Of a stretch of DNA of 64,000 nt, positions 7,477 through 63,924 are shown piece after piece. Position numbers and translations under genes: made by a program. Under the pieces are notes generated by a model. It had not been told where the DNA came from. It ran no database searches and saw only the letters and a list, made by a program, of their open reading frames with translations. Position 1 is the first letter of the stretch. Every line of letters begins with the position of its first letter. The stretch is from Polytrichum commune (taxonomy: Eukaryota > Streptophyta > Polytrichopsida > Polytrichales > Polytrichaceae): positions 26,100,001 through 26,164,000 of the forward strand of contig OX485809.1 in NCBI GenBank assembly GCA_950295325.1, read 5' to 3'.

Positions 7477-7869
7477 GAATGCACCCAAGAATGCCATGTT
7501 AAAGCCCCCCCAAAAAATGCCTTTGACCAATCAAATTCAGACATATAATAAATAGCAAAATGTTTGTGTGAAATATTAGTTGTGAACAACTCAAAAGTTG
7601 ATCACCTCCACCAATTCTTCCCACAAAATGTGTATATCTCAATAGGACTTAGGCTAGTCACCTTAAGTTTGGAGTATGCAAACTGCCCCATTTTAAGGAC
7701 TAGTACACATATGCAAAGAATGAATCCTACAAAATCATAGAGTGTCCAAAAGTTAAACTAAACAATAGATGTGAGCACAAAGGCCATTTTTACATGAACA
7801 TAAAAAAAAACCGCTTCTACCAAAATAACCCTCGTTGATGTTCATGCACAAATGGGCATACACTAGTGG
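7477..7869. other. Intergenic, no gene recognised
   Basis: Short gap between two mobile elements. Nothing recognisable. Confidence 0.5.
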
Positions 7870-8216
7870 TACAGTAAACTCTCTCTAAACTAATATCCTT
7901 GGGACCGGCCGGAAGATATTAGTTTATGGAGGATATTAGTTCACACAAATTATATGGGGGGTAACAAATTATATGGGCATGTGCCCACAAAATAATAATA
8001 ATAATAATAATAACAACTTCGGTCTCCGAAGGAGACCGACGTGAATTAAGTGTCTGTTCGATCTACCTTCAATCCCAAGCCCACAGGACAGAGGCATGAA
8101 GGAGAAGATCTACTCCCCCCTTTCGAGAGTAGACACTGTAGTCACAAGAAACCATTAATGTAAACTACGCCTAATATAATACCCCTTGCCCCTTACCCTA
8201 ACTTTTAAGTTCTGAG

Positions 8217-9890
8217 TTATGGGGGGTCTGGATTTTGGGGGAGTGGTTGGTGGTTTTCAATTCTCCTTTTATGGAGGAGAATAGACATAGCATATTGTAT
8301 TGCAATGGTGATAATATTTTTGAAAGTATTTTTGATGGTGGCCTTAGGTATTTTGAAGTTGGTCTCTAGTGCTTTCATAGATGGGATGTGGGCAGTCGCT
8401 CTGGCACCAGCAGTGATGACAATAAGTGGTTCGATTTTCCATCCTTTGGAAGCAATGCTAGCAATTAGTGGGCTGTATTTGTTATTTTTTGCTTCAATTG
8501 CTTTTGGGGAGAATCTGTCATTGCAGTATGTGAATTCAATGAATTGTATGGTAAGGTTAGGGTCGACATCGCTGGGAGGGGCATTTTGATAGGGGAGTCC
8601 TTTAACACAGAGGATATCAGGTCTAAATCTTGCGTTGCAGTGACATCTTTGTGTACTACATGTGCAGGGGAGTAGCCAATTGGGGACTGTGTTTTCTTGG
8701 GGGTTGTTATTGAAGGTGCCAACATTCATGAGAGTAAAGCATCGGGATTTTTCTGATGAGATTAGGAGCTTCCTAATTTCTTCGACTGTTTTGTTATGTC
8801 TTTTAACTCTAAGTGAGTGTATATGTTGGTGTTTACATGTAAGTAATACATGTATCCATGTATCTGGTTCATTTGAGTTGCATATGGGGCACGTGATAGT
8901 GGGAAATCTTTGGTGGCCAAAAAACATTTGTTTTCTCGCATTACCCATGTAGGTTCCTGTGCGGAATTTGATGAGGCATGATTTTTGTTTGTCGGTGATA
9001 GCGGGATTTGTCCAGAATTCGTTCGACAACTCGTTGTCTATATGTATGTTTTCTGTCCATTTACAAGTGTTGGGGGTTTGTGTGGCCATGATTGCTAGGT
9101 TCGTTTCCCTATCATATTTTTTAATTTGTTTTTCTAAGAATCTAACTGGGCCTTTGTCCGGAACGTCTTCCATCGAGGCCCATACGTCTTTTTGGTAATA
9201 GTAAGGGGTGGCGTGGGCATGTTCGTATGGGTGGGCGGCAATTCTGTGCTCTAATTCTAATCCTTCTTTTGCTAGTTTGTCTGCTTTTTCATTGCCGTCA
9301 ATGTTGACGTGTGCTCTAACTTTGTATAGTGTAATTGGTTGTGTCCTTTTTTGAAGAATTTTTACCATGGAGGCTAGTGTGGTTTGGTCTAGGTGACTAT
9401 TATGAAGTGTGGGGTGTTTAATTTGAGTGTTAAGTAGGTATAATACATTTAGACTGTCTGTGAATATGAATGCGGGTTCGTTGGGATATTGTGTGTTGAT
9501 GATGCTTAGTGTTTCGTGTATAGCAATCATTTCTGCTCGTAATATGTTTTGATGTCCATGTAATCTATTGGCGATGTTTAGCCCTTTGGGGCTATAGATA
9601 CCGTATCCAGCTATTTCTCTTCTCCATTCCCCAGGGGCTATTTCTGTGGGTTTCATAAAGGAGCCATCAGTGTAGTAGCTGAATTGGGGGTGGAATTTTA
9701 GTGGTAAGTTCGTTTGGTAGTTTGGGAGTTGTGGGGTGAGGGTGTTATTGTTTGGGGGTATCTTTAGGTAGTTTGATTTAGACCATTTTTTACTAGAGTT
9801 CACTATGATGTTTGAAGGGGTGGGTGGTGCAATTTGGATGTGGCTTTGTAATATTTGGAGATTGTCTGCTATGTCCTTTAGTAATTTCAT
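8217..9890 (-). pseudogene. LINE RNase H, zinc knuckle and restriction-like-endonuclease-like C terminus
   Basis: 557 codons without interruption. RNase H spans about 70-210 with YTDGS (D75), RAE (E120), FTDS (D145) and NEKADKLAKEG (D204). A CCHC-type knuckle follows (C334, C337, H347, C352), then a second Cys cluster CTCSTQRCHC (409-418). Residues 421-510 show RPD (D425), IEFTY (E452), KxxKY (K468/K471) and KGW, the layout of the PD-(D/E)XK restriction-like endonuclease of R2, NeSL and Dualen elements. All three copies in the window keep the KGW-to-ITxGxRG part, which argues that it was under selection. It joins the upstream blocks through a frameshift near 10070. Confidence 0.85.
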
Positions 9891-10054
9891 TTGTTCATAG
9901 GTGCCTATGTTATTGTTTTGGTGGTGGATACAAAATATTTGTAGGGTAGACGGTTCTTTACTTGTAATATTGAGTTCGGGGGGTATTGTGGGTTCTTTAT
10001 ATGCAAACGTATCGGCTGCAAACTGGGCAATGATATGTGTGTCCAGGAATGGAC

Positions 10055-10762
10055 CTATGTGTGGGTTTGGGTTTTTGTACTAGTCAGTATCCGGAGATAT
10101 AAGTATAGTGATTGTATATGGATCATTTGGGCCACCATGCGAGCCCAGTGAATGGCTTGTTGTAAGTCTATTGCGTTGTGGGGGTGAGCGTATCCTATTC
10201 CTTGCCATTTGTGGTCAAATGCTTTCCCTAAGGATCCAAATATTATGTCACGCGAGAATGGCGAGTAGAATTGGGTGAGTTGCGTGGGGCATGTCACTGG
10301 GGATGAGAAGTATGACTGGTTGATATTGAATGTGGTTATTAGGAGATCTAATATTGGGATTGGTATTGTGTATTGTGCACGTTTGAGTGGGTCATTTTTC
10401 GGGATTCGGTATTTGTATCTTTGATATAACCAAACCATTTCGGTTTCGAAAGATTGGGTGGGCGGTTCTAGACCATGTGTGGTATTTTTTGCCAATTGGT
10501 ATTGTTTCCATAACCACATTAGTCTGGTTTTCGGGATGGTGATGAGGTGCCTACCATTATCTTCGTATATGTGAGCGATGTCAAATTGTATTTGGATAGT
10601 ATCGGAGTTGGTTTCAATGTCATTTTCTGGGTTACATTTATTAATAGAGATATGTGCTAGTGGAATTATTGTGGTAGGTATGACATATCTCGTGTCTCTT
10701 TGTTGTTCGGTGGAGAAGTAGACATTAATAATGTTTGAGAAGTGTTTGTGTTGTCTTTCCAT
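10055..10762 (-). pseudogene. LINE segment of unknown function between chromodomain-like region and RNase H
   Basis: 235 codons in the main LINE frame. The last third has a conserved-looking stretch: TQFYSPFSRD, IFGSLGKAFDHKW, GIGYAHP, then AIHWARMVAQ. The spacing recalls the N6-adenine methyltransferase-like (Dam/PF05869-type) domains of some retroelements, but the NPPY motif is absent (AHPH stands there), so I leave the function open. The frame is lost near 10070 at a short A run, and the same protein appears to continue in the RNase H frame. Confidence 0.45.
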
Positions 10763-11368
10763 GTAGTAGTGGGTAAGTAAGATGGTGTTGTGGTTGCATG
10801 TGTTGGCATCGCAATAGGGGTATAGGTCCCTTGGAGTTTGTCATTTGTTGTATGTGTGGTTATTTGTTGTAGTCCATTGACATAGGTATGACGTGACTGT
10901 TCTTTTTATTCCATTATGGTCGGTAGATTGTTTTTGTTTGTGATCAAGTATTTTGTATATGGGATATTGTCGGGGGTCCTTAAGTATGTTGTTGGGGGGA
11001 GGGGGTAGAGGGGGGATGGGAGGGTTTGGGGGGTGTATGGGGGGAGTCGGTAGGTGAGGTAGAATGTTGTGGTGTCTTAGTATATATTTGTCTTTGAGGG
11101 ATCTGGGTGGATGGTGTCGTTGGCATGGTAGGGGGCATTCGAGATTACAGAGAGGTTGGCAAAATAGTTGATTAGCAATGTTAAGTGCACTTTGGATGAG
11201 TTTGGAAGGGGTGGAGTGGTAGATTTTGAATTCATCTAGGTTCATTAGTGTGGTGCCATTAGGCATGGTAATTTGATCTAGTGTTGTTATATTATGTATG
11301 AGCAATTTATGTAATAGTTTAAGTGAGGTGTTGGGATTTAGACCCTGTAGCATTTGTGCTTCTTGCAT
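10750..11368 (-). pseudogene. LINE connection segment with chromodomain-like end
   Basis: Residues 16-47 resemble the LINE post-thumb motif (LLHKLLIHNITTLDQI then NGTTLMNLDEF). A Cys-rich patch (70-82) and a proline-rich linker (103-126) follow. From residue 135 the sequence reads YPIYKILDHK, then after a loop SYLCQW, then KxQTPRDL with a stop at 10841 where chromodomains have Trp, and then LLTHYY. This is the chromodomain pattern of beta strands and aromatic cage, closest in wording to gypsy chromovirus chromodomains. I infer a captured chromodomain disabled by one nonsense change. A chance match cannot be excluded by eye. Confidence 0.55.
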
Positions 11369-11541
11369 CCACGCGTTTTCGAGTGGGGATGGGTGTAGGA
11401 GGAAGTTGTTTATTGTACTTTTAAGGTGGACTCCGGCTTCATGCTTGAGCAGAATAATGTTCTAGTGATAGGTGATCTAACACAGTGGTGGTATTTAATA
11501 CGGGTAATTTCTTTAGAACCTCCGTATTTGACAAGTATAAA

Positions 11542-11808
11542 TTACATTAGGCCGGTATAAATTTTGCCAATTCGGCCTTTATCGTTAAGGGCGTTTTGTA
11601 GTGAAAATGCTTCAATTCCAAATAGGTTGTGGGGGAGTTGTGTAGTAATATTAGATGTGCATTTGGGTATTCCGCATATTGTTTTATGGAGTGCGATGAT
11701 CTTTTTGTCAAGTTTTTTTATGGCTGGTATGGAGTATGGTACTGCATAAAAGCTATATGCTATTCCAACGCGTATGACTGTATCAGCCATGTTGATTTTT
11801 TGTTTCAT
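11542..11808 (-). pseudogene. LINE reverse-transcriptase thumb remnant
   Basis: 88 codons in a frame one base off the RT block, with the usual post-RT features (TVIRVGIAYSFY, helical, then a basic KLDKKI stretch). It shows that at least one small indel separates it from the RT block upstream and another from the block downstream. Alone it would not be functional. Confidence 0.65.
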
Positions 11809-12103
11809 AGTAGCTGGGCATGCTACGAGGGCTTGACATTGTTTGATTACTTTAGCTGTAGTGGTATTTATTTGTGTTTTCCACTTGAGTGATGGTGCAA
11901 GATTTATTCCTAGGTATGTGTAGGGTTCGTGTTGGTTTAGGACTGGTATAGGTTGGTTTCTATAGTTTATGTTGGTGGATTGGATTAGGGCCTTGAAGGT
12001 TTTTGGGGTTAAGTTTAGATTTGTTTGGGCATCCAGTTACTGCGCATTTTGGTATTCCTAGGTCCATTCCTGCCCATTCGCAGAATTTGTCTAGTTTATT
12101 TAA

Positions 12104-13195
12104 TTATGTTTGTAGTGTCTCTAGTTTGTTGGCGATTGCTGCAAGGTCGTCTGCATATGCTGCTGATGAGATTTTAATTCTGGACGTACCGAAAATATAT
12201 CCATTGTTTCCTTGTTGTAGCCATCTAAGTAGGGGTTCTAGAAATATGATGAATAAGTATGGGCTAAGGGTATCGCCTTGTATTGTACCTCTTTGAATGT
12301 GGATTGGTAGGGTTTTTCCGAAGTGTTCGCCAGTGAATATGGTTGAAGATTGTGAGTATATATTTCCTATGAGGTTTATTGAGTCATTGGGGTAACCCAA
12401 GTCTTTCATTATGGCTAAGAGTCTGGCGTGGTCAATGGAGCCAAAGGCGTTTTTGAAGTCAATGTAAAGAATGTATATATCTTGGTTTGTGAGTCTTGCG
12501 TCTTCAAATGCTGCAATTAGTATTTGGATTTGTCTGGAGGTGCTTCTTTCTGCTCTAAACCCTTCTTGGCTATCATGTAGTATTTGGTATTTTTCTCCGT
12601 ATGCTGATAGGATAGAGGTTAGTGTACTTGTGTAAAATTTATATATGGTGTTAGCTAGTGCAATAGGTCTGTGATTTGTTAGTTGTGATGGGTTACCTTT
12701 TTTATATAATAAAACTGTTAGGCTAGTTTTCCATGATGCGGGAATTTGTTTTTGTTTATAGTAATACTTAAATAATAGGAAAAACAATTTGTGAAAGCGC
12801 GGAGGCATATTTTTTAGAATTGAGTTGGGAATTTTGTCTGGGCCTGGGGTTTTGTTATTACTTAGGTTTTTAAAACAGAAGTCGTAGGTTTCTTGATCAA
12901 AGTATGTGTGTAAGGGGATTTGGGGTTCTTCTCGTTTGTCAATTGTGTATCCTTCTAAGTCGTGCCATGGGTATTGTCTGACTCCACATGTATAGTGTAG
13001 TGGATGTGTATTTTGATGGTGGCATGTGGGGATTGTTGGGCGGTTACTGATGGATTGTTGTGCGTAAATCTCTGATGCAATGTCTTCAGGGTTGGTTAAT
13101 ATGTTGTTTTGTCTATCAATGATGGAGTCAAGAGGTGAGGTTTCAGTGTTTTTGAAGACTTTTCGGTTTATTTTCTTGGGGTTTTTTTCATACAT
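12104..13195 (-). pseudogene. LINE reverse transcriptase block
   Basis: 363 codons in the same frame as the endonuclease. It has the LINE reverse-transcriptase signatures: TPGPDKIPN (residues 116-124), YIDFKNAFGSID with catalytic D246, RGTIQGDTLSP (302-312) and AAYADD (345-350), the catalytic Asp pair. The frame is cut by a stop at 12104 just after the YADD block. Thumb-like sequence continues beyond it on the same strand, so the stop is probably a lesion. The copy at 53275-55218 carries the homologous block. Confidence 0.95.
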
Positions 13196-13303
13196 TTGGC
13201 GGTATTTCGATACGGCTTTTAGAATGCAGTTTCTAGTATATTTTGTGGTGATTTTTCTGGCTTCTTTATTTGGAGTTTTTGCGATGGCCGCTATTGTATT
13301 AAT

Positions 13304-14674
13304 TCATTCATTCGGGGATGCTGCTGTAGCAGGTGGGTGCGGAATGCTGACGTGTTGGTGGTTTCGAATATCGTTTAGAATGGGGTGCACTTGCCAGTAT
13401 GGGTCATGTTGTACTATGTAAATGGCTTTCCTGATGAGGTGATATGTGTTGAGGTGTCTTTTCCATTCTCTAGCTAGTTTGCGTGGTAGAAAACCACCTT
13501 GTTGTGATGTTATGGTTGTAAGGTTGGGTAGTGGGTCTGCTTTGCAGGTTTTTTCAATTGTTTCTGAGATTTTGTTTATAATGTAGTCCAATGATGTGCA
13601 TACAACTTGCCATTGATCAGATGTTAAGTGTTGGTGGTTTTCTAGTAGTGTGGTAAGTACTTTAAGTTGGATGGAGTTTTCTTCAAAGAATGTTATGTTA
13701 AATTTTTCTAGGTTTTCAGGTGGTATCATGTTCAGTATTCTAGTTGGTGAGGTGTTTGTAGGGGGTGGGGGTCTGGCTATAAGTGTGTTGTGGGGGATGT
13801 GTAATGTGACTGGATAGTGATCTGAATTTAGATTCATGTTTGTGTTTGTAGTAGAGGTAAATTTGCTGTTGTCTGGGGAGTGAATGTAGAAACCATCTAT
13901 TAGGCTTGTTGATGTGTAGTTGTATCCACCTTGTCTGGAGATACTAGTGTTGGTTTGAATATATTCTAAGTTGAGAGATGTGGTGAAGTTTTTCCATTGG
14001 AAGTCTTCTTCTTGTAGGGGGGTGTTAGTGTTGTTATTTTGTCTGCCCCTGAGTGCAATATCTTTGTTAAAGTCACCGCATAGTGTGTATATGTGATTAA
14101 GGAGTATAGTGATTTGGTTAGTGATTTTGTCCTTAAGGTGTGGGATAAGACATATGTCTTCTAAGTGCGTGGGCATATACATGTGTATGATTAGCCAAGG
14201 TATTAGTGGGTGGTTGTTTATTTTTATTATTTGTAGATATGGGGAGATGTTTGCTGGTGTGGGGATTTTGGTGACATTCCCCGGGAATGCATATTTATGA
14301 TGGATAAGTGTAAGTAGGCCGCCTCTTCCGGGGGTATAAGGCATCATTTGTTGGATGCACCTTGTGAGTGCGTGTGTGTTGTTGAAAATGAGTTTGAATT
14401 CCGGGAATAGGTTTTGGATATATTTCGTAGATTTGTTTGCAGTAAGTTTGGTTTCTTGGATATGTATGATTGCTGTGTTGTTTAGAGAGTTGTTTATTAA
14501 GCTTTGTAAGTTGGGTAATGATGTGTTGAGTGATGACGCATTCCAAGTTATTATGATTGTTTCATGTTCGGTGTTGGTGTTTATTCTTGTGATTGGTGTG
14601 GGAGCGGTTGGGAGTGGGGGTGAGGGTGAGTATTCGCTGATGTTTTCTAAACATCTAAGTGTTTCGGTTATCAA
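13304..14674 (-). pseudogene. LINE APE-type endonuclease block
   Basis: 456 codons in the same frame as the 2A block. It shows the landmarks of the exonuclease-endonuclease-phosphatase fold used by LINEs to nick target DNA: TWNASSLN (residues 43-50), IQETK with the metal-binding Glu (E74), the CGDFNKD block, an IDGFY block and the terminal SDHYPV block with its catalytic Asp-His pair. A linker follows that leads to the reverse transcriptase. The frame ends in a stop at 13304 and continues into the RT block after about 110 bases, so a nonsense change rather than a real end is likely. Confidence 0.9.
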
Positions 14675-14899
14675 CTGGTTTGGGAGGAAAGGGAATTCTT
14701 TCTTGAGGGTGGTTGATGTGGGTGTGATGAATTCGTATATTTTTGTGTGTATTGAGTTTTGAGGGAGTATTATATGTTGATTGTTTTCTATGAATGTTGT
14801 GTAGGGGTGCGGTGTCAGTATGTGTCGCTTGGGGGGATTGGTGAGGTTAGCTAGTCTAATGATTAACGTGTTGGTCCATATGTTATTAAAGTGGTAGTT

Positions 14900-15607
14900 T
14901 TAGGGTTGGGCTAGCATATTATTGCATATGTCTATTGCGGGGTGGATGGTAATAATTAGGGCGTATAGCATATGGGTTGGTGGCGACTGGTTTTGTGTTT
15001 GGGTATAATGGTGTAGATGTGGGTATGGGGTGATTGCTTGGAGGTGTAGTGGGTGTGTGTGTTTTAGGATAGGGGCGAATGTATTTGCTAGGTGTTGGTA
15101 TTCAGGTTGTAGTTTTATAGTATTTGGAATAAAATACGTGTTGGCTTTTTTTTTTTGTGTAATAGGGTGTGTTCGTAGAATATCAGGCATTGGTCCCGGG
15201 TTAAGTTCGATGTCCCCACATTTTAGTAGATCTAGTATGTCAATGAAGTAATATCCGTAGAATTGAAGTGTTTTTGGTTTTCTCATATTTATTTTAAGAT
15301 ATTTCAAACATGTGAATTTGGTTGTGGTAAAGAGGTTACGCATAGCGGGTGTGGTTTTTTCTACTAGTTTGGGTGAGAAGTGTGACGTTGCATTGTTTGT
15401 AGGTAGTGGGTTTGTTACTGAGTTAGGTTTCCAATTTTTTATGAAGTGGTATGTGTTATTTATGTGGCGAGGCCAGTAGGCTGAGGCCATTTTGTTATTT
15501 GGGTAGGGATTGTATTTTGAATATGGGTGTTTATGTTTTTGGTAGGGTTTGTATTTAGGGTGGAGGTGGTATTTGGAGTGGGGGTAAGGTGTGGGGTTTA
15601 GGTACAA
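14900..15607 (-). pseudogene. LINE N-terminal segment with 2A-type ribosome-skipping motif
   Basis: 235 codons. The first 60 residues are basic and tyrosine/proline-rich. Residues 132-139 are D-I-E-L-N-P-G-P, preceded by LLKCG, which matches the 2A consensus LLxxGD(V/I)ExNPGP at every fixed position. 2A motifs make the ribosome skip the last Gly-Pro bond, so two proteins come from one frame. They are known in picornaviruses and in some APE-type LINEs (trypanosome L1Tc, sea urchin and lancelet elements). Here the motif lies between the leader and the endonuclease, as in those LINEs. The frame stops at 14900 and the same frame reopens into the endonuclease block. Confidence 0.85.
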
Positions 15608-15848
15608 GTTGTATGTAGGGTGAGGCTTGTGAGATTTTGAGTTAGATTGGGTTTCTTGTTTTGGTTGGTACTTATACGCTTGTTGGTATTTGTGTTTTGG
15701 GTATATTTTGGTTTTTGGATGAAGTTTATGTTTTAGGTGGACTCTATGATTTGGATGAAGCTTATCCCTTGGATGAAGATTTTGCTTTAGGTGGGGGCTA
15801 TATCTTGGATGAGAATAGTATTGTGGGTGGGACCGGGGTATTTTTGTT

Positions 15849-16331
15849 TTAGGTAGGAATCTTGTTGTGGGGGGGGGGGGGTGTTATATTTCCTAATTGA
15901 TTGGGTAAAGGGCGTGTTTTGTTTGTTTTTAGGTTTTTCATGCTTATGGTTTTAATTATGGTAATCGGGTTGGGCGGGGTGTGTGTGATGTTACTAGGTT
16001 GTTTAGGTGCGAGGGAAGGTTTAGGTTTTGGTTGTGTATTGTGTTTAGGGTGTAAACTATGCTTTGGATGTGATTTGAGTTTAGGGTGGAATCTATTTCT
16101 TGATGAGTACTTGTATTGTGAGAGAGGCCGTTGTATTTTTTGTTTTGGATGGGCGGTAAAATTTGGATGCGTAGTGTGTTGTGTTCGGGGGTTGTATTTT
16201 GTGTAGTTGTTAGTGTAATTTGGTACATTTATAAGTTTTATATTTGATGTACTTGAGATCGTAGGGAAGTATCTATATAGGTTAGTTGTTTTTGGTTGTG
16301 TCTTACTTGGTTTTTGATCATGTGCCCACAT
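15849..16331 (-). pseudogene. LINE 5-prime open frame, basic H/K/P-rich
   Basis: 160 codons, but the first ATG lies inside the target duplication, so that start cannot be the native one. The sequence is low complexity and strongly basic, with repeated HPK-like words around residues 80-115 and a run of prolines near the C terminus. It has no zinc knuckle or RNA-recognition motif, so it may be an ORF1-like nucleic-acid-binding region or merely an open stretch of the 5-prime untranslated region. It is in a different frame from the 2A block downstream. Confidence 0.4.
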
Positions 16332-16463
16332 ATTAGTTTAGAGAGAATATTAGTTTACACAGTATTAGTTTAGAGAGAGTTTACAGTATGTGGTTAGGTG
16401 CAGAATGAAGAATGACACGTGTCTAAAGTTGTTGGACTCAAACATGACACATGTTTAAAGAGA

Positions 16464-20762: not shown

Positions 20763-22715
20763 AATAAACCTATTCCAATACGAAAAGATGATTGTTCACA
20801 AAAGATTTTGAGTCAAGAGTGAACTAACTTTTCCCCTTTGTTGATACATTTCTACATATATAAACTTCATAAAAACATCGGACTCTCTTTCCTATCTTAG
20901 AGTGTATATCTATTCTTAATATAGCTTTGCAAGTTTTGGACTACAAATATCTTGCATATATTTATCACCATTTCTTGAAGTTTGATTCTCAAATTTTTTT
21001 GTGCAGGAAATAACTAAGTTTCTCCCGTCAGTACAAGACTTTCACTACGCTAAATTTGATGTTTAGTGTTTGATACACTAAATACGAATACATACACTAA
21101 ATGTCAATAACCCTATAAAAGTAAGTAACATTAAATGTAAACTCAAACACTAAATATCAACCACGGTAATATGTAGAATTTACATCTTGGTAAGGATATG
21201 AGAAAAAGAAAAATAAAACCAATGATAGAAGGAGAATTCCTGCATATCTTCTTGCATACAATCTAGCACTAATTGTCAAGGAAGCAATTAGTGTTGAGCA
21301 AGGTAGGGTGGTAACAACATTGAATATAATCAAACACTAAATATCATATTTAGTGTACTTTTAAGTTTTTGAGAAAAAGAAACTTCACTAAATTATCAAT
21401 TCATACCCTGCTTAGGGTCAAGTTCCATGTGCCGGTGTGAGTTCATTTTTTAAGTGGGTGAGACAGAGGTGACATCATCCAAAAATGGGTGATGTCACTC
21501 ATTTAATGGAGGGGTACTTCTATGTGGGGAGCCGGTTTATTCCGATTTCCTACTTCTCACCAAATTTGGTGAGTAATAAGATGTCACATTTTATGAAGGT
21601 GACCGGTAATGAAGGTCATCATCATTTAACTTTTGATATTTGACTTGCACAATTATTTTTGTACATTTATTGAATGAATTCCAAATTATGTGTTCTTGGT
21701 GTCCATAGGTGGTACGGATGTCATCTATGGAAATATATAAATATTTACATATTTTACTTTCAATTGAAATCATGATTGTACGTTGTTTATAAGTGATTTT
21801 TAATACATTTGCATAGACTTTGATTATTTGTATCAAACCTAACATCTACTTTATATTGCATTATATATAAGTATTTTTTACTGTTAAGATCCAAAATTTT
21901 GAAAACATCATGAAATACACGTTCTCATTAGTTCACTTTAATTCACAATGAGAACTTTGACAATAGAACATACAATCATCTTCTATCTCTTATTTCCTTC
22001 GTGATTGATGTGTACCTTGCCCTTCTCAAAGGAATACCATTGTACCGCAAGGAGTCCTAGGTGTACCCCTCAAAAGAAAGGACTTGAAGAACAAAGTGGC
22101 CTTTAGTACCCAAGGCCCAAAGGTGTACCCAAGGTGACCAGCCGATCCGGTCACCGGAGCTCTCAAACCGGCACATGTCTTTCTCTTGACCGTTAAGACC
22201 GCCGGTCCTTTGGCACCAGTCTTTGCACAGCGTACAATGTGGGACACCCATCCATGGGGGATACCAGTCCTTGGGTGAGGGGGGATGGGCATATGGAACC
22301 ACCCTTTTCCAACCTGCCCACCCATTTATTTGTCAAAAATTGGACTGGGACCGGTACATGGAACCTCGCCCTCATTCAATGAGCAACATCTCTACAAAAG
22401 TTGTTTGTCCAGATTTCTCAAACTAATGAACTCTCTTTTAGATTATGGTTCAATGAAATAGGTTATGGCTGCAATGTTGACAAGATTATGAACTCTATTT
22501 CATTGCAACTCTCATTGACATTTCCAACACAAGTTCTCCATCAACTCCAAAAGTATGTCGTAGCAGCAGTTTGTTGCCACCAAGGGTGGTGCTAGGATTT
22601 TGACCCACGGGGGCCTGACCTCAGAATATGGAAATATCCGATGTATATTTTATTTTCAAATTTCAATACATGGTCGAATTTGATTATTTATTGAGAGATT
22701 TGGACTCATCGAGCT
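20763..22715. repeat. Large tandem duplication, unit B, with inserted element
   Basis: Second copy of the 19465-20762 unit, split by a 959-bp inverted-repeat element at 21414-22372. Homology to unit A resumes at CATTCAATGAGC. It ends where the 249-bp tandem repeats start. Confidence 0.75.
21414..22372. mobile_element. 959-bp inverted-repeat DNA element, non-autonomous
   Basis: The left end AGGGTCAAGTTCCATGTG and the right end, read on the other strand, AGGGCGAGGTTCCATGTA followed by CCGGT on both sides, give about 25-bp terminal repeats. Comparing units A and B shows that this block is the extra sequence. The interior holds a CACCAAATTTGGTG palindrome and a GC-richer right half with overlapping short frames but no transposase motif. 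I cannot define the target duplication. Confidence 0.65.
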
Positions 22716-23080
22716 GACATCCCCATAAAAAAATTGATAATGTCGTTAATATCCAAAGCTTTGGCAATGGTCTTTTCGATATAGATGGTCATCATATCAA
22801 CCATCCAATCATCGCCAATAGACATTGCCAATAATAAGCAGATGCCCGACTTTCCTTCAATGCACTCGTTGAAAACATTATGGAAAAGAACCGCTGTTGA
22901 TTTCCCACTACGGTTCTTTTGATCAGCATGCTCTGCAGTCGCTAAACGACTGCAGATTTTTTCTGACATCCCCATAAAAAAATTGATAATGTCGTTAATA
23001 TCCAAAGCTTTGGCAATGGTCTTTTCGATATAGATGGTCATCAGATCAACCATCCAATCATCGCCAATAGACATTGCCAA
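22706..23080 (-). pseudogene. Unrecognised coding-like segment, tandem copies 2 and 3
   Basis: 124 codons on the minus strand in which MSIGDDWMVD, MTIYIEKTIAKALDIND and INFFMGMS occur twice because of the 249-bp tandem repeat, with TAVLFHNVFNECIEGKSGIC between. Helical, no signal peptide and no family motif that I recognise. The open frame may be a by-product of the repeat. A transposase or domesticated fragment is possible but unsupported. Confidence 0.35.
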
Positions 23081-23213
23081 TAATAAGCAGATGCCCGACT
23101 TTCCTTCAATGCACTCGTTGAAAACATTATAGAAAAGAACCGCTGTTGATTTCCCACTACGGTTCTTTTGATCAGCCTGCTCTGCAGTCGCTAAACGACT
23201 GCAGATTTTTTTG
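22716..23213. repeat. 249-bp tandem repeat, two copies
   Basis: GACATCCCCATAAAAAAATT starts at 22716 and again at 22965. The two 249-bp units are almost identical, and a third diverged copy sits at the end of unit A (20399 onward). Since 249 is a multiple of three, the minus-strand frame stays open through both copies. Confidence 0.9.
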
Positions 23214-33420: not shown

Positions 33421-34903
33421 GAGCGTTGGCAGGCAGCTGTTGCTTCCACTTGATCTGGATCTAGATGAGGCATGTGAAGGCCGGGGACTGCCATCATGCA
33501 CGTGAAGTGGTGACATATAATAATAATAATAACAGGGCCTCTACCTATCATATCCATGGGAAGAAGAGGCGGGCGGGGAATTTGATGACTGATTGCCCAT
33601 TAAGGTCGGGGTCCGGCCGGTCTGAATGAATGAATGATGTGTAGAATGCAATAACTAACTAAGTTTCGCTAGCTAACTCGACTCGACTTGACTCGACGGG
33701 ATCGCATCGAGTGGAGGCACAACCGGTGAGGCTCCTGAGGAGAAGGAGTACTACTACTCTTCTGATGCTCTGAATCGGTCGCACCCCCATCGCTTTTTAA
33801 GTAAAGCCGACCTGAGTCGGGGCTTTCGATCGAAGCTTTTGAGGGGGAGTGATTGACGCTGCCTCCCACCAGCTGACATTGACTGGTGGGTCGGATCATG
33901 GAGAGCTTTGCTGCTTCTGTGGTCATCTAGTACACCCAGTTCGTGGGAGTAACTTGCACAGATGTTGGATCATCAAAAAGCCTGCAAAAATGCACTTGGG
34001 TGTGACCTACTCCAGCCCCATCAAGGTCGTTTTAGCCAACCTCAGGCCTCGCGATGATCAATGTCCCAACTTTTTCCATCCGATGCGTTGGGTTTTTGGT
34101 TTTAATGGAAAAAGATAACCCGATTTCTGCGAATAAAACCATGGTTTTATCTCGGCACTTGGCACTCGGCACCATCATTGGCGAACATTGAGCCCTTTGC
34201 CCTTCTAATCTCAACTCATCTGCAATAAAACTAAATAAAACCGGATTTTGTTGGACCTCAGATGGTCGGGGGTTTCTTTTTAACTTACAAAAAATCCAAT
34301 TGTGGAAAACCGCATGGTGCCAGCCTTGAGATGTCTTGCCCTTCCAACTAGGCCCTACCAATCTTGCCTGAGGATGAAGGTGATGAAGGTGATCGACTAT
34401 AGTATAACACAAAAATGGCTTTCTTTAAGGGATTCCACTCTTGAATTAGCATTAGAGATTTCAAATTAGTCTAGTGGGATCCGATGGGGATGATAGATAA
34501 ATAGGTGGATAAATAAATAGATAGATGGATAGATAGATAGATATAAACATCTTAGGATGAGCACCATTATCCGGCATTTATTTCTAAGCAAAAATCCAAT
34601 GAAACAATGACACCCACGGGACCTCAATACAAAATGATGTACACTAACTTACCCTATATGTTGGTTGGTTAACCTATATATAGCATCATAATTGTATAAG
34701 CAATGGAAAAAATAACCTAGAAAATGGAAGCACGTTACGTTAATAGCTATAAAAATAAAAATCTTCACCATAACATGAAAAAAGTAGGCAATTATTTTCA
34801 CAACGTACGCTAGCTTCTCAATTTTGTTTTATAGGGGGTTGTCGTTGTACAAACCCCTTGAACCAAGGTGTCATGAGCCTTAATCCGTCTATAGGGATCC
34901 ACA
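33421..34903. other. Intergenic, no gene recognised; includes (GATA)n tract
   Basis: A moderately GC-rich stretch (33400-34400) has short overlapping frames on both strands but no family motif. A GATA/GATG microsatellite lies at about 34490-34545. Confidence 0.5.
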
Positions 34904-35910
34904 ATGCTTACTAACTATAATTGGATTGACAATTTTGAGTGCGCTTTTGAGGATGTTAAATATGCCTTAACACATGCGCCAGTACTGACCTTACCCAAGT
35001 TAGGGGAGTCATTTGAGGTCGTAAGTGATACTTCTTTACTCAGAGCAGGAGCAGTATTACTTCAGGGAGGTAAACCTATTGCTTTTGAGAGTAAGAAATT
35101 TTCTCCAGCTGAGAGAAATTACACTACTGGTGAGCAAGAACTAGCAGCAGTTGTGCACGCCATGCGAACCTGGCGGTATTACCTAGAGGGAGCAGATTGT
35201 ATTATTGTTACAGATCATAATCCTCTAGTGTATTTAAAAATATAACAGACGTTATCAAGGCATCAAGCTCGATGATTAGAGTTCTTGGAGCAAAATTTTG
35301 TCTACCATTGGGTATACCGATCAGGATGGATTAATATGGCCGATCCCCTGAGTCAAAATCCACTAGACACAGGTGGCAAAAAAACCTTGATACCACCTAA
35401 GGCTGCTCCAAGTAACTCGATCTTCCAAATGGTGGCTACAGACGCTATGCGAAGTGATCCCGGACAACGAGACAACAATGTGAAGGGGTACCCGGAGTTT
35501 TGTTTATGATAACCACATATGATGGTATGATAAGGCGGTTGTGGTTTCAAATGTGTCCTTCTAAGGATCGAATATCAGGTCATTTTTGCTCCGTAAATAC
35601 CATGACGCGATGTATAGCAGTCATGTAGGAATAACTAAGATATATAAGAAAGTGCGAGTAAACTTTTGGTGGCCTGAGATGCAAGGGTCCATCAGAAGCT
35701 ATATAAAATCTTGTGAGATTTTCCAAAGGAATAAGATCCCTACTCTTAAGCCAGCAGGCCTGTTACAACCATTGGAGATTTCTAATCGTAATTGGGAAGT
35801 GGTAAGCATAGATTTTATTTTTGGCTTGACTCCATCTGCTAATGGTTATGATGCCATCTTTGTGTGTGTGGATAAGTTGTCCAAGATGGGCATTGCAACA
35901 ACAAACCGCC
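34904..35910 (+). pseudogene. Ty3/gypsy pol fragment (RNase H to integrase)
   Basis: Three open pieces on the plus strand. 34904-35245 carries the gypsy RNase H: VVSDTSLLRAGAVL, FESKKFSPAERNY, QELAAVVHAMRTWRYYL and VTDHNPL. 35285-35509 continues with NMADPLSQNP. 35586-35905 carries the integrase zinc region (HDAMYSSHVG, then C-E-I-F-QRNK, where the usual second Cys is replaced by Phe), NFWWPEM and the start of the catalytic core (VSIDFIFGLTPSANGYDAI), ending at VDKLSKM. Stops separate the pieces, both ends are missing and no LTR was seen. The wording fits chromovirus-type gypsy elements, but the chromodomain end is absent. Confidence 0.9.
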
Positions 35911-38099
35911 TGACTCAACAATCCCAAAATGGCTACTCATATGCACTTACGCGCACACACCATGCCCATGCCAAACACCAAACCAAACCAAACACCAATA
36001 ATTCCCTCCCCCACATATACAGTTTAATTCAAAGGATTCACATGCTGGCACAATAGATTTCCCAATTGTGAGCCCTAAACCTCCACCCTTGTGCGTTGCA
36101 ATCCAGGCGAAGGCCTATGGCTTACATGGACTTAAGTAACTCATTCCTCCATGTGAACTCGGCCCTTCAAGGCTTCAACAATATGAATGTCACACACACA
36201 CAATTTTATTCCAAAGGATACAAGAGTGCAAGCACTTAGAAATGCTCTTTTCACTTGTACTTATTGCCAGGAACCATTACTTAATGAGTTCCCCACACCA
36301 CTCTCAAATATTCAAACCTATCCTAATGAACCATTCTAACTAACTCATTGGCCATGCAACTATCACCCATCACACTTGCCACGTTGTTATTTCCATTTCG
36401 CTAATCACTCCACACCCCATTACCAAGGTCCTACTTAGCATTAAGACACACCTATCCCTAATCCATCGGCCATGAGCTAACTCATCTCCAATGGCATATG
36501 TATCTCCCCCTGTCCATTGCTCGAGCTCGAGCCTCTTTGGCTCAGTCTCTGTGGGTGTAGCAGCTCATCAACCCACAGAATGAGCTAGTTCGGTTGGCCT
36601 CCCAGGAACAACAACTCTCAGTTGCAGCCCCTGCGAGTTGCCTTCTCCTTTAGCCCACCATCAGACTACAACTCCCATCACCAACATGGACCAACCTCCT
36701 CGGCCCACGATGTTGAGCAATTCCAGCGACCTGTTCCATTACCATTGATCCCAGTCGACAGCTACTGTCCCCCAGAATTGTGCATCCACCACAAATCGGT
36801 GTTGTTGTATTCATATCTTAGGCCCTACTGCTTCACTCAAAATCAATAAGCATTGATCCTCCACCGCATCAGGAACGGACCACTCCTCCAGAGCGCTCCT
36901 GGATCTTCCCTCCTCCGGCATCTCCGCATTCGAGCTTGAATTGGATCAGAATCGAAACCACTGGCCGCCGTTGTAATAGTCTTCTCCCGGCCCCACTCTC
37001 AAGGGAGGTAGGACGCAGAGTTTGCGCATCCCTCCTGCCCGCCTAATACCCAAGATTCGGCAAATTCTAGCAAGTGCATCGAATTGACAGGCCAAGGATT
37101 GCGGTGTGAATCCCAGTTCCCTTGCCATGTTATACCTGCAAGGTGCCGACAGCAAGGAATGCGATGCTCCCCTCTACCCTTGATTGAATCACATGCTACC
37201 CAAGAGAATCAAGGAGCGCAACCAAACTGGCCTTTGGATTCGGTGTCGGAAATTCCCACCTCGGCAGTTAGGCTACATTCCACCAGGCAATGAGCAAGAC
37301 AGCCAGCTTGGAATAATCAGTGGCCTCGCCGAGTGCAGGCCGCCGCTAAGCTGGGAGTCGAAACCGACGCTGTCTGCTGCAGCCGCTTGCCAACCAGCCA
37401 TCGGAATCCAACCTGACTTACAAAAACCGGAGAGATAGCTTGCTTGATCCACAGCCACACAGACCATCTTCCTCTCTTTACCCCTCAACCACGGGCAGAA
37501 TACTCCCATGTTCGCATTACTTTTGTGGCATAGATGTTGCCTTAGTCGCCACACATTTTAGTGTTCGGGGCACTTAGCCATCCCTGCCTCACAACCCTGC
37601 CGCCAGCCAAGCTACCTGCACCTGTCTGCCTTCTACCATGTTTGCCCCCGGAGAGCTCTGCCTCTCACCTTCCTGATCTCTTCTTCGGTGTTGCCGTTCA
37701 TTTTTCTGCCCATGTGTTACTTTTCGAATCCCGAACTCCACACACCACCTGCCTCCCGAGTGAGGGAGAATTCCAGGGTTCTCGGGCCTCTCCTCTCCCC
37801 CGAATTCAAAAAGGCTATCCACATCGGAACCCCCCCCCCCCCCCCAAAAAAAATGAACAGGAGCCTTGGTGTTCAAATACCCTTGGCCTTAGCCTTTCTT
37901 AACCCTTAGACAACACCCTTCTAATTCCTTTTGGCTTTTCCCCCTCTAATAATTCCAAGCTTTTGCTACCTTAACGCTACTCCCTCTAACTTTGTGATTT
38001 TAATCCTTTTTATCTTTTCAACTAACTCAAAACAAATACAAATTCTAAGGTTTGATATTCCTAAGGTTAAATTAAAATGTGGGCACATAATTGGGCTCA
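35911..38099. other. Intergenic, no gene recognised
   Basis: GC-richer between 36500 and 37900, with several mutually overlapping frames on both strands (for example 36622-36849 plus, 36946-37155 minus, 37273-37554 minus). None has a recognisable motif or splice-supported extension. A C run followed by A run lies at about 37830-37853. I cannot exclude a decayed gene. Confidence 0.45.
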
Positions 38100-40349: not shown

Positions 40350-40890
40350 TGATGTTTCCACCTTAGGAATAATATCACTCATCGCGCTCCAGAACGTGAT
40401 CGATGGTGTAAGGGGGTTGGGAATTGAGCTCAGGAAGGGGTGAGAGAGTTTGAGCAGGTGTCTGGGACGAGTTTAGAGGAATTGTGAGAATTTTAGAGGC
40501 TGTGGCAGAGGAAACCCTAATTCGGAGGTTTGGTTGAAGGGGGTTTTTCACCTCATCGTTTTGAGCGGGGAGTCGAGAATCGAGCTTAGCAAGTGGTGAG
40601 AGAGTTTGAGCAGGTGTCTGGGACGAGTTTTGAGACTCTGGGAGAATTGGAGAGGCTGTTGCAGGGGAACCTAATTCGGGGGTTTGTAAGAAGGGGGATT
40701 TTCCACCTCAGGAAGAATATCACGCATCGCTCTCTGGAACGGGATTGATGGTATAGGGGGGTCGAGAATCGATCTCAGAAAGTTGGTGAGAGAGTTTGAG
40801 CAGGTGACCGGGACGAGTTTCGAGGATTTGGGAGAATTTGAGAGGTCGTTGCAGGAGGAACCTTATTTCGGGGGTTTGTAAGAAGGGGGG
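40350..40890 (+). repeat. Triplicated Pelota 5-prime leader
   Basis: Three diverged tandem units (about 40360-40548, 40549-40703 and 40704-40890). Each has TGAGAGAGTTTGAGCAGGTG, then a GACGAGTTT word, a GAGGCTG/GAGGTCG word, an AACCCTAATTCGG-like word and GTTTG plus a G-rich run. The third ends ten bases before the Pelota ATG. The first contains a perfect telo-box AAACCCTAA (40512-40520), an element common upstream of plant translation genes; it decays in the other two. Confidence 0.8.
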
Positions 40891-40899
40891 TTTGGCATC

Positions 40900-42036
40900 A
40901 TGAAGCTGGTGCGTTCGGACATCACCAGGGATGGAACGGGGAGTGTGAAGCTAGTGCCCGAGGAGGCAGAGGATATGTGGCATGTGTACAATTTGGTGGC
41001 AAAGGGAGATCGGGTGTCAGGAGTGACGGTAAGGAAAGTGATGCGGGAGACTGCATCAGGGAATGGCGAAGCGGAGCGGGTGCGGCTCAAGCTGGAAGTG
41101 GAGGTGGAGAGTGTGGAGTACGACAAAGTGGCGGCTGTGCTTAGAGTACGTGGTAAAAATATGTTGGAGAGTGAATACGTGAAGCTTGGGGCTTATCATA
41201 CCATGGAGCTCGATCAGCAACGTCCCTTCGTGTTGGCGAAGGAGTTTTGGGATGCAATGGCAATTGATTACTTAAAGCAAGCATGCGACCCTGCTGCGAG
41301 TGCAGACGTTGTGGCTGTGATGATGCAAGAGGGTTTGGCTAACATCTGTCTTGTGGGTGCGAGCATTACCACTATGAAAGCTCGAATTGAGAACTCGATT
41401 CCTCGAAAGCACGGAGCTGCAATTGCAGGCTATGATAAAGCTGTAAACAAATTCTTTGAGAATGTGCTTCAGGGAGTGTTACGCCATGTGGACTTCTCTG
41501 TGGTGCGATGCATGGTGATTGCAAGTCCTGGGTTTACCAAAGACCAGTTCTTTGACTATATGATGTTGGAAGCTACAAGACGGGATTTGCGTCCGATCAT
41601 CGAGAATAAGGGAAAGATAGTTCTTGCTCATGCTTCTTCCGGTTATAAGCATTCATTGAAGGAGGTGTTGAGTGCGCCGGCTGTTATGGCACTTATCAAG
41701 GATACCAAGGCTGTGAAAGAGGTGAAGGCACTTGATGATTTTTTCACCATGCTCACGAATGATTCTTCAAGGGCCTTCTATGGTCCTGGTCATGTGGCTG
41801 CAGCACACGAACGGCTTGCTGTACAGACCCTACTCATCACAGATGAGCTTTTCAGGAGCGCAGACGTGACAACGCGGCGAAAATATGTGGATCTGGTGGA
41901 ATCTGTCAAGGCAGGAGGTGGTGATGTGTTTGTTTTCTCCTCCATGCATGTGTCCGGTGAGCAACTCAATCAATTGACAGGGATTGCCGCAATGTTGCGG
42001 TTTCCTCTGCCAGATTTGGAAGACATGGAGCTGTGA
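40900..42036 (+). CDS. PEL1: Pelota / Dom34 ribosome rescue factor
   Basis: 378 aa, full length for the family (yeast Dom34 and animal Pelota are about 385), in one exon. Pelota binds stalled ribosomes with the GTPase Hbs1 and splits them in no-go and nonstop mRNA decay, in the cytosol. The N-terminal eRF1-like domain spans about 1-130 ([18 protein letters not shown] start, DMWHVYNLV). The central domain is about 135-260 ([16 protein letters not shown], then [14 protein letters not shown] with the family PGF at 210-212), and there is no GGQ, as expected for Pelota as opposed to eRF1. The C-terminal domain is about 265-370 ([22 protein letters not shown]). Methionine 1 is fixed by the family start. 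The lack of introns is unusual next to the intron-rich neighbours. A convergent TRM4B-like gene lies downstream. The symbol follows plant usage; the paralogue number is not implied. Confidence 0.96.
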
Positions 42037-44056: not shown

Positions 44057-51907
<7,851 letters not shown>

Positions 51908-53274: not shown

Positions 53275-55218
53275 TGTCAATATGTTGGCTTAATGTGTTT
53301 CCTTGTATAGTTCCTCTTTGTATAGGTATTATTTGTGTTTTGTCAAAGTGTTCTCCAATAAATGTGGTAGTGGATTATGAGTAGATATTGCCTACTAGGG
53401 CTACGGCATCTTGTGGATAGCCAAGGTCTTTCATAATGATAAGGAGTCTGGCATGATCAATAGAGCCGAAGGCATTTTTTAAGTCAATGTATAATATATA
53501 GATATTATGGTTGGTGAGTCTCGCGTCTTCTAATATTGCTATAAGAGTTTGTAGTTGTCTAGCGGTGCACCTTTCAGCTCGAAAGCTCTTTTGGCTGTCA
53601 TGTAGGATTTGGTATTTTTCCCTGTATGTGGAAAATATATTTGTAACTGTACTGGTGAAAATTTTGTATATTGTGTTGGCTAGCGCAATTGGTCTCTAAT
53701 TGGTGAGGTGGTGGGGATTTCCCTTTTTGTATAAAAATATTGTGAGGCTAGTTTTCTAAGATTCTGGTATTTGTTTTTATTTGTAGCAATGAGTGAAGAA
53801 TAGTAAAAGAAGTGTGTGAAATCGAGGTGGCATATTTTTTAATATGGCGTTAGGGATTTTATCGAGACCAGGTATTTTCCCGTTGGCTAGGTTTTTAAGA
53901 CATATATCATATGTTTCTTGATCAAGATATGTGTGTAGGGGGGTTAGTGGTTTGCCTCTCTTATCTATAGTAAATCCGTTTAAATCGTACCATAGATATT
54001 GTCGAACTCCACATGTGCAGTGTTGTATATGACCTGGTTGGTAGTAACACGTTGGGATGGTTGGTCTGTTGCTAATTGATTGTTGGGCAATTATTTCTTG
54101 TGCAATGTCATTAGGGCTTGTAAGGATGTTGTTGAATCTATCTACGAGACAGTCTGGTAGGGGGTGTCATTGTTTTTGAAAACTTTCTTGTTTATTTTCT
54201 TGGGGCTTTTATCATAGAGTTGTTAGTATTTGGATATGGCTTTTTTTATTTATTTGGTGGTGTAGTCTGTTGTGATTTTGCGGGCTTTATTTTTAGCTTC
54301 TTTTGTCATCCGAGCTAAACATGCTAACCATGAGTCGTACGGGAAGGGGGGGGGTCTGGTGGCGGGGGTATAGTAGTATGAATGTGGTTATTTATTTCCT
54401 GGGTGATGATGGGGTGATTGCGCCAATTTGGGTTATTTTTTGTGATATATATTATCTTTCGAATGAGGTGGTAGGTAGATAGGTGTAGTTTCCATTTCTT
54501 TTGGGGTTTTTTTGGGGAGGTAGCCTCCTTGCTTGGCAATTCGGTTTGGTAGTGTGGGAATGGATGGAGCACTACATGTTTCTAGGATGACGGTGGTGAG
54601 GGTGTTTAATGAATTGCAGGCTAACTGCCATTGTTCATCCGTTAAATGATTGTTATTTTTTAATAGATGCATAAACTCATCTATTTGATTGGAGTTGCTT
54701 TCAAATAATTTAATGTGAAAGTCTTCGATCTTCTTCTTCGGTATGGGTTGAGTATTATGGGTGGTGCCTTAGGGGCTATAAGTGGTATTTTAGCAATTAG
54801 TGTGTTTGAGGGGATGTGTACGTAGTTGTATGGGTAGATGATCAGAGTTTAGGTGAGTGTTTTGGTTTGTAGTTGAGGTGTATTGGTTATTGTTGGGGGT
54901 TTTGATGAAGAAGCCGTCTATTAGGATATTTTGTGTATAGTTGTGTCCTCCTTGTCTTGAGAAAGTTGTATTTGTCGGGACGTATGATAATTCGAGGCTG
55001 GTTGTAAAGGATCTCCAAAGATAGTCCTCCGTTTGTGGTGGCGTTGTTTGTAGGTCGTTTTGTCTTCTTATTAAGGCAACATCCTTGTTGAAGTCTCCAC
55101 ATAAGATATATGTGTGATTAGGGTGATTAGTCATTTGGTTAGTTATGATAGTTTGGATGTTGGGGATGAGAGGTAAGTCTTTCTCATGTGAGGGCATATA
55201 TAGGTTAATTAGCTAGCA
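53275..55218 (-). pseudogene. LINE copy 2 endonuclease and reverse transcriptase remnant (inverted block)
   Basis: Reading leftward: LINLYMPSHEKD, ILCGDFNKDVAL, FFIKTPNN, LNSDHLPIQL (endonuclease), then a linker, then reverse-transcriptase words (PGLDKIPNAI, DLGYP, a GTIQG-like block) ending before the YADD motif. Several stops and frame changes. It is clearly homologous to the block at 12290-14200 of the full LINE. Confidence 0.85.
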
Positions 55219-56833
55219 AAAGCACTAAATACACACATAAACACCTATCCCATCACCCCCACAACAACACACTACAAGATCAAATTCTCTAAAACGTGGT
55301 TAAATGCCCCCAAAACAACTCCACCCCCCGAGAACCACAATACAACAACGCTCCCCGCAAAATACCACCACATCCACCCACTCAAATACCACCCACGCCA
55401 ATGCATATACACAGATGGATCATTTATCCCACCAACCAAAAACTCATACGGACAAATAACAGGCAACACCGCAGGATCCAGAATATACAGCCCCAATAAC
55501 AACATTCAAATATCAGAAAGACTACCAGGCTACCAAAACATCCTTAGAGCATAGCTCAACGCAATACTCATCGCCATCAAAACCATCAGCATTACCCATG
55601 TAAATACCCACATATTTACAGACAACCTTAATAATATATTCCTAATAAACAACCACATTCGACACCCCACCTCACAACATCACCACCCAGACAAACTACT
55701 CATAGCAGCCATAGTACACCATATATACTGGACCCCACACGTAATTCATATACACAAAGTACGCGCACACTCGGGCATTATGGGTAATGAAATCACAGAC
55801 ACATTGGCCAACAAAGGGACTCTTAAAGAAAAACTAAATAACACACCACACATACATATAGCCCACACCACACCATACTGGCTAGCTAGCTACCCAACCG
55901 CCACACACGACGGGGCCATCCGGAACCTCCGCACAACTATAACAAAAGAACACGACACCCGTGAAAAAGCGATAGCCAAAAGCAAATTCTCATATGTGAA
56001 CAAATGGTTGTCAAATGACCAAATAAACCACAAACTCTTCAATCATTTTTGGAAAAATGAACAAATAACTGACGCACAAATATCCCAAACCTTAAAGTTT
56101 AGATATGCCCAATACATGGGTAATCACATAAAACACATATTTTGGCCAAACACACACCAAAACCCCAACTGCACACTATGTCATAAAAACGACAGAGACA
56201 CATGGCCACACCTCCTCTCATTGTGTGAACACCCCTACCTAAAAGGCCTACGAATATCTAGACATGACAAAGCAGTGCACCTTATTGCACAAACACTCCA
56301 AGCTAACAAAAATACCCAATTCTTCACACTAACCAACGTTGGTAAAACCAACAATAAACCCCCTGACCAAACCATCCCAGACTAGTTACTCAAATGTACA
56401 TGCCTATATACCCCCTGCCAATGTCACGCCAAACTTAAACCATACATCCTATGCATAATCGGAATCCCAAACCAAACACAAACACCTACGGCACCGACCC
56501 CCACAACCATAGTCCAACTCATAGAATTCACCTACTGCCACGACAAATTCCCATAACAAGCCCTCATACAAAAAGCATACCAAATATGACCCACTAATCA
56601 ACGCCATACAAAACAATGTGTGGAAAATCAACCCCCTCGTAACCATCACAACAGGTTTAAGAGGAGCCATACACGAACACTCCATTGAAAAGTTGAACAA
56701 CTTAAAAATCCCAAAAGTTAATATCAAAAACCTCATGAAAAGTTTACACCATAACGCCATCAAATATCTCACCTACCTAATTCTAAACAAAAGAAAACTA
56801 GACAACAAACAATCACCCGTCCCCCCACCATAA
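55219..56833 (+). pseudogene. LINE copy 2 RNase H, zinc knuckle and RLE-like remnant
   Basis: YTDGSFIPP and NILRA of RNase H lie in 55400-55560 with a stop. 55780-56385 is open for 201 codons from MGNEITDTLANKG through the knuckle CTLCHKNDRDTWPHLLSLC. After a stop the RLE-like block follows: LIEFTYCHDKF, then WKINPLVTITTGLRGAIHEHS and LKIPKVNIKN. Conservation of IEFTYC(N/H)D and of the ITxGxRG words against copy 1 supports a real domain. Confidence 0.85.

Positions 56834-61749: not shown

Positions 61750-63924
<2,175 letters not shown>

Follow-up and report, generated by a model that had tools for sequence, protein, structure and literature searches.

Whether one LINE can carry two endonucleases of different types together with a domain resembling a cap methyltransferase is the question raised by a repeat in the genome of Polytrichum commune. 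The 64,000-nt stretch analyzed here (the window) contains a minus-strand element running from 16318 to 7990, flanked by a 12-bp direct repeat and ending in (TTA)n. The original prediction, made from this stretch, saw in it a single LINE with leader, 2A, APE, reverse transcriptase (RT), chromodomain-like, unknown, RNase H, CCHC, and RLE-like parts. The features are collected in Table 1.

Table 1. Features of the LINE and of a second copy in the window.
Feature	Position	Strand	Details
TSD, 5′ copy	16319..16330	.	12 bp; CATGTGCCCAC, found in the window only at 7978 and 16319
Region ahead of ORF2 ATG	15491..16318	-	C/A-rich; degenerate 18-bp tandem repeats
ORF2 N-terminal peptide	15191..15490	-	~100 aa; ends with 2A motif GDIELNPGP (15191-15217)
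APE endonuclease	13808..14548	-	TWNA, QET, GDFN, SLID, SDHYPV motifs
Reverse transcriptase	12104..12906	-	RVT_1 1.9e-23; YADD 12143-12157
Putative chromodomain-like domain	10817..10978	-
PCIF1/CAPAM-like methyltransferase-fold domain	9810..10651	-	crosses frameshift near 10130
RNase H	9258..9680	-	RNase_H 1.9e-13
CCHC zinc-finger motif	8835..8891	-	CPIC...H...C; invariant in alignment A5
RLE, R2 type	8220..8834	-	RHN 8790-8807; RPD 8613-8630; E within FIEFTYC 8523-8543
Conserved structured RNA 3′ end	8012..8146	-	6 helices
(TTA)n tail	7990..8013	-
TSD, 3′ copy	7978..7989	.	12 bp; matches 5′ copy
Second copy, related subfamily	53279..56824	.	5′ part inverted; tblastn

The window copy is damaged. 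Its alignment to the genomic copy L014 spans all 2,441 residues of the latter (84-86% identity) but contains six stops and three frameshifts. Since just 828 bp precede its ATG and ORF1 is absent, the copy is probably 5′-truncated. The region ahead of the ATG formed part of the predicted leader and is at most putatively coding; likeness to other copies mostly ends near 15520-15552. The LINE lies inside another repeat, probably a small DNA transposon, whose inverted ends (ACAGTAAACTCTCTCTAAACTAATAT) were recognized by eye (window 7850-7930 and 16331-16380).

Intact versions of the same design are present elsewhere in the genome. A search of the 407.8-Mb assembly, which has rbcL on one contig (C8), with PCIF1_WW yielded 697 first-look candidates, at least 150 of them over the cut-off, and 20 copies (L009-L028) were chosen from 150 for their long open frames, an uneven sample of the family in which every member was found via the CAPAM domain. 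Five of these (L009, L010, L013, L014, and L015) encode the 2A motif, APE, RT, CAPAM-like domain, RNase H, and RLE in a single stop-free frame; ORF2 is 2,655 aa long as scored in L009 and 2,441 aa in each of the other four. The same motif order recurs across the 20 copies by strict patterns, save for stray matches to the short HPxN pattern and with some patterns unmatched. Every domain is under purifying selection in the comparison of L014 with L013, with dN/dS of 0.086 for APE, 0.042 for RT, 0.025 for the chromodomain (56 codons), 0.129 for the CAPAM-like domain, 0.05 for RNase H, and 0.10 for CCHC plus RLE; against L009, the 56 chromodomain codons give 0.5-0.76. Recent pairs differ by a dS of 0.010 (L014/L015) and 0.005 (L013/L010), which bears out the predicted recent activity. 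The near-identical intact copies, along with a closely similar domain set in related algal elements, make this look like a working design rather than a scrambled copy.

The domains differ in how readily they are recognized. The 2A motif is present in 40 of the 126 long relatives listed (L009 among them) and in 0 of 2520 shuffles. With single sequences as queries, Pfam failed to detect the APE and gave no more than a faint signal for the chromodomain; a profile from four relatives matches the APE at 1.7e-18 (best shuffle, 2.4e-4), and PF03372 was found in relatives. The chromodomain assignment is weak by sequence: of three genomic copies, two scored 14.5 and 16.0 bits with Pfam Chromo and the third gave no match; a piece of P0098 reached 17.4 bits, and pieces of P0059 and P0066 gave none, so that every score lay below the cut-off of 25.1. 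The RLE columns PD, E, D, and RH are invariant in alignment A5, and the sequence match to the R2 RLE takes in the zinc finger/RH stretch together with the helices past E, with PD/E itself outside the match. A cysteine protease gave no Pfam match in the window ORFs or in two scanned ORF1 pieces; the N-termini of some relatives contain Ulp1 or Josephin domains, one of them also with a weak OTU match.

The Dualen/RandI elements of green algae are reportedly those of Kojima and Fujiwara in 2005, and the Dualen abstract of that year is said to mention a cysteine protease. According to the parts of the sources cited here, APE and RLE in one LINE define Dualen/RandI, for which RNase H has also been reported (PMC4640811, PMC3636483), and Dualen is cited as connecting the LINEs of RLE type with those of APE type (PMC4640811). 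By its APE, RLE, and RNase H, the plant element can be filed as a Dualen/RandI-type LINE, an assignment by the two defining endonucleases. The likeness extends to a non-poly(A) tail of (ATT)n type, the tails of green-alga RandI being (ATT)n or (CTATTT)n in the portion of PMC3747384 cited, and to the relatives, since among the full-length proteins listed here, almost every one with an organism name belongs to the green alga Haematococcus lacustris. The differences are the plant host, the CAPAM-like domain and the chromodomain/PHD slot, which go unmentioned in the parts of the Dualen descriptions compared, and a plant family without a detected cysteine protease, whereas relatives have Josephin or Ulp1. 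R2 elements are not known to possess an APE and are known for a fixed target site; here, in contrast, the APE is present, so that the RLE is not the sole endonuclease, and the target site duplications (TSDs) are unlike each other.

TSDs of 10-13 bp adjoin the tail in 8 of 17 copies (16 plus the window copy), six of the eight being 12 bp long, and a clear TSD is absent in the other nine copies examined. Their sequences differ from copy to copy, and in four the first bases are possibly tail sequence. A search that assumed a (TTA)n tail recovered the TSD of the window copy alone; allowing (TCTA)n tails, which most other copies have in place of the (TTA)n of the window copy, and more upstream DNA revealed the others. 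Next to the tail, the RNA 3′ end is conserved in structure. In its last 130 nt, 12 of 38 pairs show double-sided changes (mean in shuffles, 4.1), and none of 500 shuffles attained the covariation score; both results are based on 11 hand-chosen sequences, 10 of them distinct. This fold looks like the recognition structure of the RT. Separately, the 3′ UTRs of L014, L013, L009, and L020 contain a patch (GGAATCGAACCCGGACC...) that looks like a tRNA in reverse reading and is shared between families. The patch was not seen in the 3′ UTR of the window copy, and an ARAGORN scan of nine loci for it detected no tRNA.

We consider it likely that the element is a mutated and shortened copy of a Dualen/RandI-type LINE with recent activity in a photosynthetic, rbcL-bearing host, and that this LINE worked as follows. 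The 2A site would release the ~100-aa N-terminal peptide, and the chromodomain-like fold would aid the choice of chromatin. The APE would nick the first strand, and the RT, binding the conserved 3′ RNA structure, would prime on that nick. The R2-like RLE would then make the second nick ~12 bp away, with the RNA cleared by RNase H. The CAPAM-like module may hold the polyprotein to the messenger RNA that encodes it or help to finish the 5′ end, which is a guess.

It is possible, if somewhat doubtful, that only one endonuclease does the cutting, with the APE making all nicks and the RLE-like domain just binding DNA or RNA, or the reverse. The ExK lysine beside the catalytic E is absent from the plant-family RLE (FIEFT), which has IEFT at the place of EVK/EIK in P0101 and P0102, and because of this missing lysine the plant-family RLE may be unable to cut. 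Groups other than Dualen are also described with one endonuclease type in the part of PMC3636483 cited. However, the catalytic RLE columns are invariant in A5, the CCHC plus RLE segment is constrained (dN/dS 0.10), and two coordinated cuts would be in keeping with TSDs of so narrow a length range. The existence of recent intact copies in a plant genome makes two questions testable: do both endonucleases cut, and what determines the 12-bp length of the duplication?

The block originally called unknown is present and proved identifiable. Its Rossmann fold is matched to CAPAM (PCIF1), mainly to the methyltransferase part (human residues 417-668), and in many such elements it sits between RT and RNase H. 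The likeness is confined to this fold, and the catalytic NPPF is absent. At its place the window copy reads YAHPHN (10175-10192), the plant family has mostly HPHN or HPHT, and 64 Haematococcus copies have NVPA; NPPF or any [NDS]PP[YFWH] occurs in 0 of 137 readable relatives, 10 more rows being unreadable there. With this catalytic motif lost, the domain is most likely a non-catalytic module binding RNA or the capped 5′ end, although the binding role is a guess. That many elements retain, under selection, a fold devoid of its catalytic motif points to a function in recognizing RNA. Against a binding role stands the observation, in the part of PMC10544176 cited, that PCIF1 binds the cap via its helical domain, whereas the fold match here falls mainly on the methyltransferase part.

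An active N6-adenosine methyltransferase, working on the capped RNA of the element, its cDNA, or host RNA, is an unlikely alternative to this non-catalytic module. It would account for the CAPAM-type Rossmann fold and the purifying selection on the domain, and the motif position still reads NPEY in seven relatives and NPIY in an eighth. It has to contend with the replacement of the NPPF-type motif in all readable relatives and with the inactivity of NPPF mutants of PCIF1 (PMC10544176, in the part cited). In the cited portion of PMC9479742, Drosophila, whose PCIF1 motif is changed, lacks m6Am, but so do bees, which have NPPY.

The original prediction regarded the whole combination as undescribed. 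APE with RLE (and RNase H) was already known from Dualen/RandI, at least in the source passages compared, whereas the open-licence literature searched yielded no LINE with a described CAPAM-like domain, nor any precedent for its suggested role in RNA recognition. A 2016 review of adenine methylation reportedly may mention methyltransferases in retroelements. A speculative extension, which we hold tentatively, is that Dualen/RandI elements as a group use a former cap methyltransferase as a reader of the cap or 5′ end, combined with a reader of chromatin that can be exchanged, either a chromodomain or a PHD. If true, one polyprotein would sense both the 5′ end of its own RNA and its chromatin target, and would apply a different endonuclease to each DNA strand.

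Database relatives share this architecture. The RNase H-to-RLE block as the sole query, from which the CAPAM-like domain is absent, retrieved 97 proteins. The domain is nevertheless present in 20 of the 21 relatives whose sequence continues for 280 residues or more upstream of RNase H, the lone exception being a Haliotis LINE that is also without RLE. In a larger search for long relatives, 7,996 candidates sharing most words were scored and the best 120 of 138 matches listed; among these, 77 of 79 far-reaching proteins contain the CAPAM-like domain, as do eight of nine in another search. A CAPAM-like profile built without Haematococcus matches P0102 at 1e-17. Of the 126 long proteins listed (including L009), this profile hits 105, while 95 have the RLE and 93 have both (shuffled, 0 of 228). 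Wherever the order of the two was compared, the CAPAM-like domain precedes the RLE (107 of 107). No relatives were found in viral and prokaryotic contigs. P0056, named as an RNase H of an archaeal MAG (Nitrosocosmicus), is 53% identical to part of the LINE; since it looks like a piece of a eukaryotic LINE, the MAG is probably contaminated.

An RT tree of 45 chosen rows, with no named Dualen sequence among them, places the plant family with RLE-bearing algal (Haematococcus) and metagenomic elements; four RLE-less LINE-like proteins fall apart from them with an SH-aLRT of 96, but on long branches. This grouping bears on a different origin. L1Tc and Ingi LINEs carry 2A, APE, RT, RNase H, and a zinc finger, and the plant element differs in also possessing an RLE and the CAPAM-like domain. 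That an APE LINE of this kind, with its CCHC motif, independently gained a C-terminal RLE seems very improbable, given the tree (with its four long-branched RLE-less proteins) and a CAPAM-like domain and order common to RLE-bearing relatives. Least credible of all, to the point of being negligible, are nested insertions or mis-assembly as the source of the extra domains, which the broken window copy and its surrounding repeats might suggest but which the five intact single-frame copies and the same order in distant relatives from other organisms rule out, in agreement with the single LINE first predicted.

The 5′ parts fit less neatly. The predicted length of 8.3 kb did not hold for the family, as longer copies with ORF1 extend over ~12.6 kb between TSDs. 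In L014, L015, L018, and L022, duplications enclose ~12.5-12.7 kb, and the copies have ~10.7 kb of this in common. Inside the 12-bp duplications (loci L032/L014, L033/L015, L035/L018, and L036/L022), the first 1.75-1.97 kb are hardly alike, with just short stretches of 70-83% similarity, whereas the remainder is 97-99% identical; these four copies thus show that the 12.6 kb between TSDs is not a uniform element. Transcripts may have begun in different flanks, or 5′ parts may have been exchanged or transduced. The proposed model does not cover these variable 5′ parts, and the main explanation is therefore held less firmly. Of 16 copies examined, 10 have an ORF1 ahead of ORF2; it measures 747 aa in L014 (L032) and at least 1,259 aa in L010 (L037). 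The two ORF1 types have 30.5% in common over 403 aa, and two scanned ORF1 pieces gave no Pfam match above the cut-off.

The second copy in the window has its APE/RT part on the minus strand (53279-55212) and its RNase H to RLE part on the plus strand (55219-56824), the pattern expected of twin priming. Host gene pieces at 40882-42033, 44526-45461, 47210-47584, 60488-61015, and 62824-63183 resemble Pelota/eRF1, NSUN2, Prp18, and tRNA-deaminase. A retroelement fragment at 34895-36053, with RT_RNaseH and integrase zinc-binding domains, is probably of Ty3 type, and two tandem 249-bp units, 98% alike, lie within an open reading frame at 22714-23211.
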